Shown one piece after another: positions 5,004 through 63,531 of a DNA stretch of 63,531 bases; the stretch's first letter is position 1; each line of letters starts with the position of its first letter. The stretch comes from Candidatus Poribacteria bacterium (GTDB taxonomy: Bacteria > Poribacteria > WGA-4E > WGA-3G). Location of the stretch: the NCBI GenBank assembly GCA_012270795.1, contig JAAXHO010000253.1, positions 1-63,531 of the forward strand, in the 5' to 3' direction. The position numbers and the translations under genes are program-made. Below the pieces are notes generated by a model, which ran no database searches, was not told where the DNA came from, and saw nothing but the letters and a program-made list of their open reading frames with translations.

Positions 5004-5123
5004 GCAGAATACCATACGGGGAATGCCTAAAGACGAATGCGCCAAATCAACGGTATGAATGCCTGTTGGCATTCCCCGTATGGCATTCGCCATGATTCAT
5101 ACCGTTGATTTGGCGTATTCTGC
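5004..5123. repeat. Cluster of interlocking palindromic repeats (AAATCAACGG family)
   Basis: This lies in the spacer upstream of the helicase. Three inverted-repeat pairs are present: 5004-5012 with 5115-5123, 5013-5027 with 5068-5082 (CATACGGGGAATGCC), and 5040-5060 with 5095-5115 (21 bp, perfect). The last two cross rather than nest. The unit CAACGGTATGAATGCC-N4-GGCATTCCCC recurs at 20.3, 59.3 and 60.8 kb, with a variant at 32.5 kb. Confidence 0.85.
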
Positions 5124-18063: not shown

Positions 18064-18227
18064 ATTTATATTTCCCTCATGTTTTCTTTACGGTAAAAAG
18101 ACAATTTGTAACGATTTTACAGTGTATCTCATAAATGCGAATTTTTCCAAATTAACAGAATTGCTTGTGTAGTCAATCGGGGTTAGAAACCCCTCCTACG
18201 ATTTATGAGATAGGTATTAGCAAGAAC

Positions 18228-20284: not shown

Positions 20285-20445
20285 CATTTGTCTGAACAAG
20301 GATTTTCAAATCAAGAAATCAAGAAATCAACGGTATGAATGCCTTTTGGCATTCCCCCAAATCAACGGTATGAATGCCTTTTAGCATTCCCCGGGATTAT
20401 CAGATTTCCAGGATTTTTCTCATCAAGGTTTTTTGATGTGGTAGG
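20285..20445. repeat. Composite repeat: two tandem AAATCAACGG units inside a TCTGAACNAGGATTTTC element
   Basis: The outer sequence (TCTGAACAAGGATTTTC on the left; CAGATTTCCAGGATTTTTCTC and a CATCAAGGTTTTTTGAT hairpin on the right) matches the element at 60074-60239. Two 35-bp palindromic units lie in tandem at 20324-20358 and 20359-20393, apparently inserted into it. The spacer 20188-20813 holds no gene beyond this, the promoter and the hairpin at 20508. Confidence 0.75.
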
Positions 20446-47382: not shown

Positions 47383-47545
47383 GATAACCCGAGTTGCTAC
47401 CCGTTATTTGTTGGAGGAGTTTCTAACCCCGATTGATAACAAAAAACAGAAAAACAACGAATGCTGATGCGAATTATCATAAATCGGGGTTAGAAACCCC
47501 TTCAACAAGAGTGTTTTGAAGTAGGTGGCAACTTAGGTTAAGATA
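47383..47545. repeat. Nested palindromic repeat between yqeK and rsfS
   Basis: Outer arms GATAACCCGAGTTGCTACC (from 47383) and GGTGGCAACTTAGGTTAAGAT (to 47545) are imperfect complements of the family also seen at 15946. Inside lies a second inverted repeat, 47408-47433 with 47483-47508, carrying GTTTCTAACCCCGAT and its complement. Confidence 0.8.
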
Positions 47546-57384: not shown

Positions 57385-57641
57385 TCAAAAGTATCTTTCA
57401 TTTGACCTAACCTTTTCACAATGTACGTTTTTTATATGAAATATAGTTTCTGAATACGCTGACTCACGATTTTTTTCTGTCCGGTTTAAGACAGGTCGCT
57501 TGTGTTGATTAACAATGTGCATTCCTGCCATCTCAGCAATAGTCGGATACACATTGAACTTATCATTTGCTACAACAAAAACATCGTAATCATCAGCCAA
57601 AAAACGCTTGCAGTTTTTGAAGACCTGCGCAATACCTTAGT
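57385..57641 (-). pseudogene. Detached 3' end of the HTH-DNA methyltransferase gene (shifted frame)
   Basis: This frame reads GIAQVFKNCKRFLADDYDVFVVAND and continues with KRPVLNRTEKNRESAYSETIF, the usual C-terminus of SPPY-type DNA methyltransferases. It has no own start. Removing one base near 57640 joins it to the upstream frame after ESYI. Confidence 0.8.
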
Positions 57642-58990
57642 ATATACGATTCTCTTGCTTCTCTACCTTTTCCTCTAAACAATGGTCCAATTTCTAATTC
57701 ATCTAATCTTTTGAAACCGAAGAGATCATAAGCATAGGCGTGCTGCTCATGATAGTTAATGAGACCGACATAAGGTGGACTTGTAAAGATTCCTTTGATC
57801 TTTTGTTTTTCAGCAACCTTCGCGAATTTGGGATCTACTTGGCTCAACATCTTAAAAACATCAATCGTTCGAGAATCACCTGTGATGCAATGTTGAAATG
57901 TTTCCGTTCTTAACTTACTGAATTCAATCCATCTTTGTAAACTATCTTTACAATATCTTTCCCACCATCCTAATATAGAAAAGAGAGGTTTACATATTTT
58001 TCCATGCTTCCTGCAATAGTAGGTTGTTGTAACAGGTTTTCGTAAAGTTCCTAAATCCGCATGTGTTGTCGCTCTGCACGAATGGATTGTCCTACTTAAG
58101 ATTAGTCTCAAAGCATTCTGCGTAGGTGAGTCTTCTATTTTACGAATTTGGCTGTGGATAAAATCTATTTCTGCTTTGACCCCCGGTAGATACCACTGTT
58201 TCATAAAGCGAGTAGAGTCCTTTGGCATCTGTATATCAATTTGATGCGCTGCTATTAGTTGCCGGTACGTATCCAAAAAAGCGTTTTCTTTTTCAGCACC
58301 ATACTTTTTCTGGTCTATTTCACCATTTCTCACTTTTCGTTTGAATGAAATTGGGAAGTACTTATTGTTGAATTCTTTTAGTTTTTCAGCAAGTTGGTTT
58401 TCAAACGCAATTACATCAGATTGTGCAACACAATTCTTAAGTGATGCTGTAAGCTGCATTCCTTCATCGTATAACTGAACATAGTTGAATGTGCTTACCT
58501 TTGCATTGCTTATGAAAGCATTAAAGGCAGACACATCAATTCCAATTGCATGCATACTGAGTTCGTTGGCTTGCACCAACGTTGTTCCACTGCCGCAAAA
58601 CGGATCAAGTACAATATCTCCCGCATGGAAATATGCTTCCTTTTTATAAACGTCAATATGTACATCTAAAAAGTATTCAACCAATTGCGGAATGAATTTG
58701 CCTTTGTAAGGATGTAGTCGATGCACATGCTTTGTTGTTTCTGCTTCTTTGAACTCTTCAAAAGACAGTGCCCAATTTAGGTCATCACCAAGTTCATTTT
58801 TCCATCGGTTTTCGCGATTACTTTGTCCATAATATTCTTCAAGACTCTCCAAGGAAACCAACGTTGCCCCATTTTTCAGTACAGATTCAATATGTCCATA
58901 CTGAATTAAGTAGGAAATGTTAGCGGTGGTAACGTTCTTTTTGAGCAAGTCTGATGCCCATAGGCTTGCTTGTTTGAGTGTAAGAAACAT
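57593..58990 (-). CDS. Orphan DNA methyltransferase with N-terminal helix-turn-helix (frameshifted near 3' end)
   Basis: The visible frame has 465 codons. Residues ~1-55 resemble a MerR/excisionase-type DNA-binding helix-turn-helix (SLESLEEYYG). SAM motif I is IVLDPFCGSGTTLVQ near residue 128, and catalytic motif IV is FTSPPYVG near residue 408. The C-terminus LRYCAGLQKLQAFFG is out of frame; the true tail lies in the next frame. No restriction gene is adjacent, so it looks orphan. A perfect consensus promoter sits about 90 bases upstream. It modifies adenine-N6 or cytosine-N4; which cannot be told. Confidence 0.87.
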   Translation of the reverse strand: MFLTLKQASLWASDLLKKNVTTANISYLIQYGHIESVLKNGATLVSLESLEEYYGQSNRENRWKNELGDDLNWALSFEEFKEAETTKHVHRLHPYKGKFIPQLVEYFLDVHIDVYKKEAYFHAGDIVLDPFCGSGTTLVQANELSMHAIGIDVSAFNAFISNAKVSTFNYVQLYDEGMQLTASLKNCVAQSDVIAFENQLAEKLKEFNNKYFPISFKRKVRNGEIDQKKYGAEKENAFLDTYRQLIAAHQIDIQMPKDSTRFMKQWYLPGVKAEIDFIHSQIRKIEDSPTQNALRLILSRTIHSCRATTHADLGTLRKPVTTTYYCRKHGKICKPLFSILGWWERYCKDSLQRWIEFSKLRTETFQHCITGDSRTIDVFKMLSQVDPKFAKVAEKQKIKGIFTSPPYVGLINYHEQHAYAYDLFGFKRLDELEIGPLFRGKGREARESYILRYCAGLQKLQAFFG

Positions 58991-59110: not shown

Positions 59111-59184
59111 CCGCCAGGAGAGGGAGGCAGGGTTATTCAGTTTTGGTATTTTTGCAGATATTTATAACATTCGTGAATTAGATG

Positions 59185-59456
59185 CGTAGGTTGGGTAGAG
59201 CGCAGCGAAACCCAACACGTTTCGTTCCTGTCGGGTTTCCCAAGCTCTACCCATAAATCAACGGTATGAATGCTATATAGCATTCCCCGGGTGTCAATTT
59301 AGGAGCTACTCTACCCTATTTCCCTCTTGTTGGCGGGGTTTCTAACCCCGATAGCAGAGGGGAATGGCATAAAATCGGGGTTAGAAACCCCGCCAACAAG
59401 AGGTTCATTTCTTAAATTGACGCTTATGGGTTTCGCTGCGCTCTACCCAACCTACG
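59185..59456. repeat. Triple-nested palindromic element
   Basis: Outer perfect 30-bp arms (59185-59214 with 59427-59456, GTAGGTTGGGTAGAGCGC). The middle pair GTCAATTTA/TAAATTGAC is at 59293-59301 with 59413-59421. Inner perfect 30-bp arms (59323-59352 with 59374-59403, GGCGGGGTTTCTAACCCCG). An AAATCAACGG unit (59257-59292) lies between the outer and middle layers. The rest of the spacer 58991-59599 holds only the methyltransferase promoter. Confidence 0.9.
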
Positions 59457-59599
59457 ATATAAACCAATAGTAACACAAATAAACGGAAAACTCTTAAAAC
59501 TGAATAACCCTGAGAGGGAGGAGTGTGTAAAGTTTTGAATTGAATTTGCGATACAATTCTGCTATACTTTCAACAGATTAGAACTCATGAGGTTACCTA

Positions 59600-60064
59600 A
59601 TGGAACAGATTATAGTTTTCATCACATTAATGCTGGTAATTGTATTATTTTCAGAATGTACTTCAAATGTTAACCAAGATTTGCATGAAGACATCAACAA
59701 AGAACCCACTGAAACCGTAGAATCGCAAGACATTTCACAACCAGAGGGTCAAGAGGAGATGGAAAAATCAAAAGCATATATTGGCAAACATCTGCTGGCA
59801 GGACTCACATATCGCAATAGCGATGGAGAAGTCGTCAAACGTATCCAAGTGCATGGAAAGATCACACGTATCACCAAAGATGGTATCTTTTTCAATAGGG
59901 CAGATGACAAAGGAGAGTTTTCCTTGCCACCCGACCTCGATTCTCTTGAACCTGCTATACAAGGTGCAGAGTATAAATTGAAATCTACGGGAGAGGTTGT
60001 CCGTGATGTTGACTATATAAGCAATTGGATAATTGATATGCCTTCTGATGAAGCAGACGAGTAA
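59600..60064 (+). CDS. Conserved-looking secreted/lipoprotein-like protein of unknown function
   Basis: The 154-residue protein has an N-terminal hydrophobic signal (~3-19) ending in FSEC, an imperfect lipobox. An acidic Glu/Gln-rich linker (~25-58) and a compact C-terminal domain (GKHLLAGLTYRNSDGEVVKR, then HGKITRI, FSLPPDL and KSTGEVVRDVDYISNW) follow. The second half looks like a small beta domain. The ATG has GAGG eight bases upstream. It stands alone between two repeat blocks. No function is claimed. Confidence 0.75.
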   Translation: MEQIIVFITLMLVIVLFSECTSNVNQDLHEDINKEPTETVESQDISQPEGQEEMEKSKAYIGKHLLAGLTYRNSDGEVVKRIQVHGKITRITKDGIFFNRADDKGEFSLPPDLDSLEPAIQGAEYKLKSTGEVVRDVDYISNWIIDMPSDEADE

Positions 60065-60073
60065 TTGTTATTA

Positions 60074-60239
60074 CTTGTCTGAACCAGGATTTTCAGGATT
60101 TCCAGATTACCAGGATTACCTCATCAATGTTTTTTGATAAGCATTTATGTTAACTTTCGAATGGCAATCTAATGCACCAAACTCATAATCCTGAAAATCT
60201 GGAAATCCTGAAAATCCTGAAAATCCTGGTTCAGACAAG
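60074..60239. repeat. Long inverted repeat with AATCCTGAA iterations
   Basis: The left arm CTTGTCTGAACCAGG... (60074-60108) pairs with the right arm ending CCTGGTTCAGACAAG (60239). The right arm carries an extra AAAATCCTG iteration. The homologous element at 20285-20445 has lost this symmetry and contains inserted units. Confidence 0.85.
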
Positions 60240-60278
60240 AAACCAAAACTCTACACAACCACAATTTAATAATTTAAC

Positions 60279-60737: not shown

Positions 60738-60810
60738 GGAGGTGCGGTTTCCTAACCGCACCCTCCCCAGTAGGTAGGGAATGCCTAAATGGCATTCATA
60801 CCGTTGATTT
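60738..60810. repeat. GTGCGGTT hairpin plus inverted AAATCAACGG unit
   Basis: GGAGGTGCGGTT...AACCGCACC (60738-60762) is followed by GGGAATGCC...GGCATTCATACCGTTGATTT (~60776-60810), the reverse orientation of the dispersed unit. Both precede the secreted-protein gene. Confidence 0.75.
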
Positions 60811-60843
60811 TATGAGTTCATACTTACAAAGGTGAAATTTGAA

Positions 60844-61428
60844 ATGCGAAAAAATATGTACGTTTTACTTACCACACTCATTGTTGGTGTTTATTTTAGC
60901 TTTGTTCCTGGTACAGTTAGGGCACAAATATTTTATGGCGTATTATTAGATACGGATGATGACACAGATCCTATAACTATTCTGACTGATACTAATGACT
61001 TGACTTTTACCATGACAGTAACAAATGAGGGTGAAGCTTCAGATACAGTAACCTTTGAAATGGATCTGGAAGACCCTACCGGCGGGTTAGTGCTTGGTTT
61101 GACCTCTCCCAGCGAGGGAGACGATTCGACTCCGACCTTAAATAAATGGTCGGTGGAACTTGAAGCAGGGACTGATGAAGAAATAACATTGACGATCCCA
61201 CGTAGAATGTTATCAAAGGTTGGTGAGTATAATGTTAGCGTCTATGCGTGGTCTACAGGTGATCCGGATTCATATTCTGAAATAACCTTTCATATCATGG
61301 TCAAAGATACTGTAACTAAACCTTATGAAGTAGCAATAATAGGTGTAACTTATACAAGATGCTGGTACGTATACCATTGCTTTCAAAGTACAACTAATTT
61401 GGAATGTGAAAATAACAAAAATAATTAG
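60844..61428 (+). CDS. Secreted Ig-like domain protein, truncated tandem paralogue
   Basis: The signal peptide MRKNMYVLLTTLIVG...VRA is nearly identical to that of the next gene. An Ig-like or NPCBM-associated beta domain follows (LTFTMTVTNEGEASDTVTFEM, ITLTIPRRML). The copy ends soon after TKPYEVAI. In the next frame, DAGTYTIAFKVQLIWNV continues from 61358 to a TAG at 61430, so the end is frameshifted and the gene is probably decaying. The ATG at 60844 is chosen by comparison with the paralogue. Confidence 0.75.
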   Translation: MRKNMYVLLTTLIVGVYFSFVPGTVRAQIFYGVLLDTDDDTDPITILTDTNDLTFTMTVTNEGEASDTVTFEMDLEDPTGGLVLGLTSPSEGDDSTPTLNKWSVELEAGTDEEITLTIPRRMLSKVGEYNVSVYAWSTGDPDSYSEITFHIMVKDTVTKPYEVAIIGVTYTRCWYVYHCFQSTTNLECENNKNN

Positions 61429-61550
61429 TTAGCTGACACAAGTCGTTAATTATGGATTTTACCATTTAATGTGGATATACCACTAAATGAGGTTATAAAC
61501 ATGTATCAAAATTTCTAAAGTTTACTATACTTACCAAGGAGAAATTTGAA

Positions 61551-63014
61551 ATGCGAAAAAATATGTACGTTTTACTTATCACACTCATTGTTGGTGTTTT
61601 GTTTACTTCAGTTTTTGGTCCTGGCACAGTTAGAGCACAATTCCCACCATATTATGAGGTATTTTTAGATACGGATGATGAAACTGATTTGATAACTCTA
61701 CTGACTGATACTGATGACTTCACTTTTACCCTGTTATTAACAAATTTCGGTGACACTACAGATACGATAATCTTTGAAATAAATATAACAAACCCTGCTG
61801 GCGAGTATGAGTTTTTGACCTCCCCCGACGAGGGAGGCGATTCGCCTCCAACCTTAAATAAATGGTCGGTGGAACTGGAATCATTTGCTGAGGAAGAAAT
61901 AACTTTGACGGTCCCTCGTGGAATGCTCTTGGAGACTGGTTATTATGATATTACCGTCCTTGCGCTTTCTACAGGTGATGACAGTTCATATTCTGATGTA
62001 ATCGTTTCTATCAAGGTCAACGCTCCTGCAACTAAACCTTATGAAGTAGCAATAAGAGGTGAAACTTATGATATAAGTTACGGCCCAGCAGGCTTATTCG
62101 TTGATGGGTGGCCTTTCCGAATGTCTGATACTAGAGATGCAATTTATATCTTATATGTAGAAAATAAAGGCTCAAAATTAGATCAATATTTCTTAACAGT
62201 ATCAGGCGAACTTGATAATGCAACATTAACCCCAACTGCTATCTTAGTTGACCCAGGGTATGATGGGTATGTGAAATTGACGATTCCACGCGCTTCATTT
62301 TCGAAGCATGGTATATTTGATATGACCGTCGTAGCGGAATCTGTAAATGATGCCACGGCAATCGCTGCTTTCTCCACTAAGGTCTATGTCACAGATGATA
62401 GGGAGTCTACACCAGAGCCAACGCCACCTACACCCAATCCAACGCCACCTATACCAGATCAGTCGACCCAAAAAGTTATATTCCTTAGCGAATTTATGTT
62501 CGAGTCTGAGGATGGAAAAGACTCGCTTCCGCAATGGATTGAAGTCTATAACAGTGGCATCTCAGCAGTAAACCTGAATGGATGGAAACTCCACTGGAAA
62601 CGTCTACAGCCTTCGCTTTTAGAAGCGACAACTACGTTTAAAGAGGACTTTATCATTCTGCCCCAACAGGCGAGATTGATTGTTACGACTTTGGGAAGAC
62701 GTTCAGGGAGCAGCAACCTTTCAGATAACGCTGTCTATCAACTGGACGTTTTGCATGCACAGGAACTTGCACAAGATGATATAGCAAATCACAATCGCCT
62801 TATTACCCGTGGCGGTTTCTCCCTCAAACTGCTAAATTCTGAAGGTGTCCTGATTGACCAGATCGGCACGCTTAGCGGTGACGAGAAGACATGGGAACTC
62901 TCAGAAAGCTTGATTGACGGTGTTCGTAGTTCTCTGATACGCCGTTTTGATGAGAGTGTGCCCCGTGCAGGGATAGAAAGGCGCGGTTGGATTCGTGCTT
63001 TTGATGCGAAATGA
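61551..63014 (+). CDS. Secreted protein with Ig-like domains and a lamin-tail domain (in-frame stop before C-terminus)
   Basis: The signal peptide ends at VRA (~29). Two beta domains of the NEW3/CARDB-like kind (~35-270) are followed by a Pro/Thr linker (TPEPTPPTPNPTPP). A lamin-tail domain (KVIFLSEFMF...WIEVYNSGISAVNLNGWKL) follows to about residue 470. AAGGAG precedes the ATG. A TGA at 63012 ends the frame, but clear coding continues in the same frame afterwards, so the ancestral protein was about 630 residues. It is probably cell-surface or matrix-associated. Confidence 0.85.
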   Translation: MRKNMYVLLITLIVGVLFTSVFGPGTVRAQFPPYYEVFLDTDDETDLITLLTDTDDFTFTLLLTNFGDTTDTIIFEINITNPAGEYEFLTSPDEGGDSPPTLNKWSVELESFAEEEITLTVPRGMLLETGYYDITVLALSTGDDSSYSDVIVSIKVNAPATKPYEVAIRGETYDISYGPAGLFVDGWPFRMSDTRDAIYILYVENKGSKLDQYFLTVSGELDNATLTPTAILVDPGYDGYVKLTIPRASFSKHGIFDMTVVAESVNDATAIAAFSTKVYVTDDRESTPEPTPPTPNPTPPIPDQSTQKVIFLSEFMFESEDGKDSLPQWIEVYNSGISAVNLNGWKLHWKRLQPSLLEATTTFKEDFIILPQQARLIVTTLGRRSGSSNLSDNAVYQLDVLHAQELAQDDIANHNRLITRGGFSLKLLNSEGVLIDQIGTLSGDEKTWELSESLIDGVRSSLIRRFDESVPRAGIERRGWIRAFDAK

Positions 63015-63443: not shown

Positions 63444-63531
63444 TTCGTCCGTCGGGAAGAGCAAAGCGAACCCCATAACTGTAAACTTAAGAGAATACAT
63501 AGTAAAGCATAGAGATATAACGACTTGTGCC

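Follow-up and report, generated by a model that had tools for sequence, protein, structure and literature searches.

Organization of the repeat nest

The window (i.e. the whole 63,531-nucleotide stretch analysed, contig JAAXHO010000253.1 or C140 of a Candidatus Poribacteria bacterium) belongs to a 5.18-Mb assembly of 298 contigs that is 95% complete. The nest is intergenic, with a DNA methyltransferase gene (57593–58990, minus strand) on one side and a gene for a small predicted lipoprotein (59600–60064, plus strand) on the other. A preliminary description had noted two perfect 30-bp inverted repeats, one within the other, with a third pair between them and a further inserted unit. All of these were located, the outer pair at 59185–59214/59427–59456, the inner pair at 59323–59352/59374–59403, the third at 59293–59304/59410–59421 (12 nt, 92%) and the inserted unit, AAATCAACGG, at 59255–59264. 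The inverted repeats are not chance matches, as 2 matches were found for the outer arm and 5 for the inner arm core against 0 expected for either in 100 shuffles. A fourth, outermost pair (59128–59163/59477–59512, 78%) had been overlooked and is the terminal repeat of a further element, whose target duplication is 9 bp long and exact. The nesting of mini-elements was resolved into four sequential layers, A to D, one more than had been noted (Table 1). Searches of the whole genome for Y1 transposases and for the IS4-type and ISAs1-type partners returned 0 matches on the window contig, in agreement with the reported absence of a transposase. Repeat densities and contexts were obtained from ~0.84 Mb of genome stretches that form an unbiased sample.

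Table 1. Features of the nested repeats in the window
Feature	Position	Strand	Description
Left target duplication of layer A	59119–59127	.	9 bp, AGAGGGAGG; exact direct repeat with 59513–59521
Layer A, outermost MITE	59128–59512	.	385 bp; terminal repeats CAGGGTTATTCAGTTTT; ISAs1-type ends
Layer B, left REP arm (outer arm of the preliminary description)	59185–59213	+	GTAGGTTGGGTAGAGCGCAGCGAAACCC; 91 arm matches genome-wide with ≤2 mismatches
REP loop	59214–59232	+	AACACGTTTCGTTCCTGTC; common to un-nested REPs
Right REP arm, also left copy of the layer-C target duplication	59233–59252	-	GGGTTTCCCAAGCTCTACCC
Layer C, second MITE	59252–59428	.	IS4-type ends CATA..GGTGTCAATTTA / TAAATTGACGCTTATG; sits in REP arm
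Layer D, ~34-bp hairpin unit	59256–59289	+	AATCAACGGTATGAATGCTATATAGCATTCCCCG; breaks left end of layer C
Hairpin inside layer C (inner 30-bp pair)	59323–59403	.	CTCTTGTTGGCGGGGTTTCTAACCCCGAT and complement
Right copy of the layer-C target duplication plus outer REP arm	59428–59448	-	GGGTTTCGCTGCGCTCTACCC
Right target duplication of layer A	59513–59521	.	exact 9-bp copy of AGAGGGAGG

Other repeats were present in the window. An inverted repeat of CAGGATTTTCAGGATT type (60071–60242, 34–35 nt, 94%) is situated between the gene for the lipoprotein and its next neighbour and has further copies in the genome. The gene for a predicted secreted protein is tandemly duplicated (60820–61353 and 61527–62069, DNA 77–88% identical), with an LTD domain in the longer copy. 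The contig itself terminates (63454–63489) in a further REP arm and, after it, an end of layer-C type (ATAACTGTAAACTTAAG). Repeats of this kind terminate several contigs, and the nests are therefore a probable cause of assembly breaks.

The outer MITE and its REP cargo

In the window, layer A is bounded by CAGGGTTATTCAGTTTT...AAAACTGAATAACCCTG, and its terminal inverted repeat gave 128 matches genome-wide. Among 24 paired MITE-A copies in the fetched sequence, 11 had exact 9-bp duplications and several more had duplications with 1–3 mismatches. Both arms of the type-B REP were present in 17 of the 24 copies, and at least four further copies carried other palindromes (e.g. GTAGGTGCGGTTTCC or GTAGTAGGCAC). 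An autonomous insertion sequence (IS) with layer-A ends was found in a genus-mate with a closed genome (i.e. G009, matching OY282386.1). This IS is 1316 bp (~1.3 kb) long and present in four copies, three of which differ from each other by 3–4 bases while the fourth has diverged. It encodes a transposase of the ISAs1 family (207 bits, cut-off 70). Flank inspection of two of the G009 copies revealed no simple target duplication, so the 9-bp figure comes from the MITEs. The duplication range of the ISAs1 family is about 8–10 bp, and both this length and the shared ends identify layer A as a MITE of an ISAs1-family IS. In the window's own genome no intact ISAs1 partner was found, the one trace being a broken fragment with stops.

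Layer B is a stem-loop with a GTAG tag in high copy, i.e. a GTAG-type REP, with the layout GTAGGTYGGGTAGAGC-core-GAAACCC-loop-GGGTTTC-core'-GCTCTACCCRACCTAC. In the window, 59428–59448 together with 59449–59456 pairs perfectly with 59185–59214. Identical cores on both arms were seen in 21 of 33 complete REP palindromes against ~16% expected from random core pairing, a figure that pools any matching of arms with the shared descent of whole palindromes, which also feeds the excess. One loop (acacgtttcgttcctgt) occurred with the core pairs GCAGC/GCAGC and TTGG/TTGG and with the mixed pair GCAGC/TTGG, which suggests that arms have repeatedly been made to match within a palindrome.

The second MITE and the hairpin unit

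The end sequence of layer C (CATARGYGTCAATTTA) is the third pair of the preliminary description, and members of its family were followed across the genome. Direct flanks were tabulated for 34 insertions, the element being defined as 5'-C...G-3', and 23 of these had unambiguous duplications; boundaries are uncertain by ~1 base because the edges are G/C-symmetric. The target duplications of these 23 clean MITE or IS insertions were 17 bp (two), 18 bp (four), 19 bp (twelve) and 20 bp (five), with a mode of 19. Exact duplications were observed in unique DNA at four loci (GGTGTTTGAGTTTTTATTC at L004, GGTACAACACTATTAACC at L006, GTAAAGATAAAAACCTTGC at L007 and GGGCATCAAATCTGTAAC at L127). Autonomous-IS ends, a lack of coding capacity and target duplications identify layer C as a MITE of an IS4-family IS, with a non-identical target pair in the window copy. 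The cores of this pair are CCCAAG on the left and CGCTGCG on the right, so that a later conversion must be assumed. In ~12 of 56 layer-C elements the flanks are inverted and the element lies between two REP arms; inverted target copies flank layer-C elements or ISs at L015, L022, L025, L062, L125, L143, L272, L275 and L277. Simple insertion does not explain these inverted flanks, which could derive from deletion across the REP hairpin after insertion.

The hairpin inside layer C gave ~95 half-site matches per Mb of sampled sequence, many of them outside MITE-C. This GTTGGAGGGGTTTCTAACCCCGAT-type hairpin also stands alone at 47408–47508 and 18165–18199 of the window, and at L114 a MITE-C variant is inserted beside one. 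A search of Rfam with the perfect inner hairpin gave sub-threshold matches to microRNA precursors only, which were judged to be chance.

Unit D (AATCAACGGTATGAATGC...GCATTCCCCG) splits the left end of layer C between CATA and GGTGTC. This unit occurred in 82 distinct contexts of the sampled sequence, including REPs (between GTAGGTC and GGGTAGAGC), MITE-C ends, other repeats and the unit itself. Neither a target duplication nor a constant 5' context or tetranucleotide was detected among the 82, the left contexts being as varied as GGTC, CCAT, TTAC, CTCC and CCGC. Elements of IS200/IS605 type insert 3' of a constant short target and make no duplication; unit D likewise makes none, but its left contexts vary. 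Some MITE-C copies that carry unit D have perfect duplications (L011, L131), so D may have come in together with C. More AAATCAACGG hairpin units, some tandem or self-inserted, lie at 5039–5111, 20304–20395 and 60785–60830 of the window.

An IS4-family partner with long target duplications

Layer-C ends bound an autonomous IS of 1459 bp (~1.46 kb) in the genus-mate (G009:611292-612750), which encodes one 439-aa transposase and is flanked by the duplication GTGCGGTTAGAAAGCTACAC. The protein belongs to the IS4 family (NF033592 transpos_IS4_1, 211 bits against a cut-off of 115; PF01609, DDE_Tnp_1). No copy of this partner was found in the window's own genome at its 95% completeness. Further Poribacteria copies had 17-bp duplications in REP arms (L271, L273) or a 20-bp duplication in a palindrome (L248). 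Two relatives on Chloroflexota plasmids have proteins that are ~33% identical; the duplication is 20 bp for the Candidatus Chlorohelix plasmid (GGGTGCTAAAACCAGTGCCC) and, as read by eye, ~17 bp for the Herpetosiphon plasmid (GGGTGTCTGCGCAATCC). In a Bacteroidota relative (L274) the duplication is 11 bp long (GATGATTATCC). No clear duplication was discerned for IS4 relatives on Priestia and Klebsiella plasmids. The IS4-type transposase appears to duplicate ~19 bases, twice the usual IS4 length; the 23 clean insertions (17–20 bp, mode 19) all exceed the ~10 bp (7–13) of the family. In the C1 region the R, E and K of the YREK motif are present in the expected spacing; the Poribacteria copies have A, F, V, T or I in place of the Y, and the Bacteroidota relative keeps the Y. 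The element ends (CATAGGTGTCAATTTAA) fit the IS231-subgroup consensus CAT-------AA--TAA. A search of PDB sequences gave nothing useful.

Layer C might also have had its autonomous partner in a larger CTATAAGTGTCAATTTAGG family (L132 and others), but this proved to be a different repeat with GTGTGTAAAGTTTTTGTCA ends; in its members (L132, L134, L135, L140 and L150), CTATAAGTGTCAATTTAGG lies just inside the end and resembles the layer-C terminal repeat. IS4 relatives of Chromatiaceae/Thiocystis with CATAGGCGCCAACTTAAG ends (L277, L281 and L282) also adjoin GGACGGGGCATTCGCCC-like palindromes.

Autonomous partners of both MITEs occur in genus-mates and none is intact in this assembly; the earlier suggestion of mobilization in trans is supported. 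Recent mobility, offered together with arm homogenization as an explanation of the perfect arms, is doubtful in this genome since searches gave no IS4 partner and just a broken ISAs1 fragment; some homogenization is supported by the excess of identical REP cores.

Target choice of the IS4-type element

At least 20 of ~41 layer-C insertions in the window's own genome (counts read by eye) lie in REP arms; such arms account for 0.15% of the unbiased 0.84-Mb sample (binomial probability of the excess, ~1e-45). The edges of REP-arm insertions are always G^GGT...ACC^C whatever the length of the core, so that the duplication follows the arm (17, 18, 19 or 20 bp). Outside REPs, twelve insertions have a short half-site, G^G(G/T), on each side. 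The target of IS231A is GGG-N5-CCC.

These data bear on whether the IS4-type transposase reads the folded hairpin or cruciform of the REP or a linear symmetric sequence. Folding would suit the palindromic nature of most targets, the ~12 elements with inverted flanks between two REP arms and a duplication length that tracks arm length with constant edges. The twelve non-REP targets, however, follow the half-site consensus, and no extra pairing between their two sides was detected (29 against 27.4 expected, P 0.37), which argues for two sequence half-sites and makes recognition of a folded structure unlikely. The preliminary proposal that the hairpin itself is the target is not needed to account for these insertions.

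A second alternative is that the nest arose by single-strand transposition of RAYT or IS200/IS605 (Y1) type, for which the hairpins would have been substrates. The REP does begin with GTAG, three Y1 transposase loci are present in the genome and unit D is a hairpin lacking a target duplication. For layers A and C this explanation is contradicted by terminal inverted repeats, duplications of 9 and ~19 bp and DDE partners; the search for RAYT or IS200/IS605 movers proposed at the outset led instead to MITEs of the DDE ISAs1 and IS4 families. The best Y1 gene has a palindrome of another kind at its flanks, with no layer-B-type REP found near it, while another, IS200-like Y1 gene (L163, G000:C186:11826-12411) is interrupted by a different MITE with ends GAGGGGTGTGCATAA and an intact REP. 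As unit D also lacks a constant 5' tetranucleotide, construction of the nest by Y1 enzymes is improbable.

Variety and history of the nests

The proposed search for un-nested versions was positive: throughout the genome every layer has copies that stand free or are nested in another way, and the nest is therefore not one fixed repeat. MITE-A with a REP only occurs at L207, L045, L159 and other loci, and MITE-C with exact duplications at the four unique sites listed above. It is accordingly very improbable that the whole 272–385 bp block was copied as a single repeat family whose nesting is an ancient accident: several loci share sub-blocks, among them MITE-C plus unit D at one left-end point with a perfect duplication (L011 and L072; L131 at the other end), so some composites may move as units, but full-length identity to the window block was confined to the window, other copies were parts in different orders, 76 clusters had many different architectures with MITE-A without C and C without A both common, and un-nested copies had their own target duplications. 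The genus-mate repeats the nest order, with an intact IS4 element in a GGTGCGGTT-type palindrome, MITE-A-like ends (CAGGATTATTTAGT...) around it and near-matching 9-bp flanks (cccaaaaag/ccgaaaaag). The flank of the window nest had no match in the 20 relatives searched, so a cross-species empty site is lacking.

The right target copy of layer C in the window matches the far REP arm, and an un-nested MITE-A in contig C211 (L159) holds a REP with the mixed cores and loop of the window. Layer C may reasonably be taken to have entered the CCCAAG arm, after which the two outer arms came to match; conversion in the opposite direction is equally parsimonious. The matching outer arms of the window are best taken as a sign of REP arm homogenization, which they suggest and do not prove.

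From the directly observed ends, duplications, variety of nests and autonomous partners in relatives, the segment is interpreted as a stack of non-autonomous DDE transposons forming a self-seeding nest, with a probability of roughly 0.86. Partner transposases would have moved the window copies in trans. A MITE with ISAs1-type ends and a REP as cargo would have landed between the genes and generated the 9-bp duplication, a MITE with IS4-family ends would then have entered one REP arm, creating a second copy of it, and the left end of this second MITE would have been interrupted by a short hairpin unit. The IS4-type transposase is proposed to recognize two inverted G^G(G/T) half-sites ~19 bp apart, a pattern that REP arms (GGGT...ACCC) would fit, such that the palindrome cargo of each MITE would serve as a landing pad for the next. 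Frequent nesting may be explained by this fit of REP arms to the half-sites together with the palindrome that each MITE carries. More generally, it is somewhat favoured that in an IS4 subgroup of Poribacteria and Chloroflexota the two strand transfers lie two helical turns apart, a stagger set by the spacing of the inverted G^G half-sites, so that whole REP arms are duplicated and REP-carrying MITEs thereby build self-seeding nests.

Comparison with known systems

Nested MITEs in REPs are already known in kind. Unusual here are the identification of both autonomous partners and an IS4-type partner with duplications of about two turns centred on REP arms. Layer A resembles ISAs1-family ISs and IS-derived MITEs, its ends and its 9-bp duplication agreeing with an ISAs1-family IS of the genus-mate, and differs in its cargo, an exchangeable REP palindrome that is mostly of type B and in some copies GTAGGTGCGGTT or GTAGTAGGCAC.

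Duplications in the IS4 family are ~10 bp (7–13) and those of the IS231 subgroup 10–12 bp; the family is marked by the YREK motif in the C1 region and the subgroup by the end consensus given above (PMC2266710). The Poribacteria element resembles the IS231 subgroup in its DDE_Tnp_1/transpos_IS4_1 transposase, its fitting CATAGGTGTCAATTTAA ends and its size of ~1.45 kb (PMC2266710). It differs in a 17–20-bp duplication, about one helical turn longer than the 10–12 bp of that subgroup, and in replacement of the YREK tyrosine, which the Bacteroidota relative with 11 bp retains. Specific insertion into REP palindromes is shared with ISRm22, an IS4-family element, and with ISPsy8, ISPa11 and ISPpu9 (PMC1525189). 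These REP-targeting ISs make duplications of 0–6 bp at a fixed point (six bp at the palindrome axis for ISRm22; PMC1525189), whereas the Poribacteria element duplicates a whole ~19-bp REP arm. Long target duplications (16–28 bp) are also made by the long-duplication subgroup of the IS1202 family, for which a target preference was not found (PMC10132070); the transposase described here (P0001) clearly prefers certain targets and is matched by IS4 models, not by those of IS1202.

Each transposase family is usually assigned a nearly constant duplication length, which amounts to one turn (~10 bp) for IS4 and to half a turn (~5 bp) for its offshoots. Duplications of ~19 bp in a clade, variable between 17 and 20 bp, would, if confirmed, indicate that the geometry of strand transfer can shift by one whole turn; the close relative with 11 bp makes this switch testable. 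The nests also offer a concrete route for REP spread and mosaic growth independent of RAYT, REPs being carried by MITEs whose transposases favour REPs as targets. Set against the published descriptions compared here, the two-helical-turn, REP-targeting IS4 subgroup looks new.
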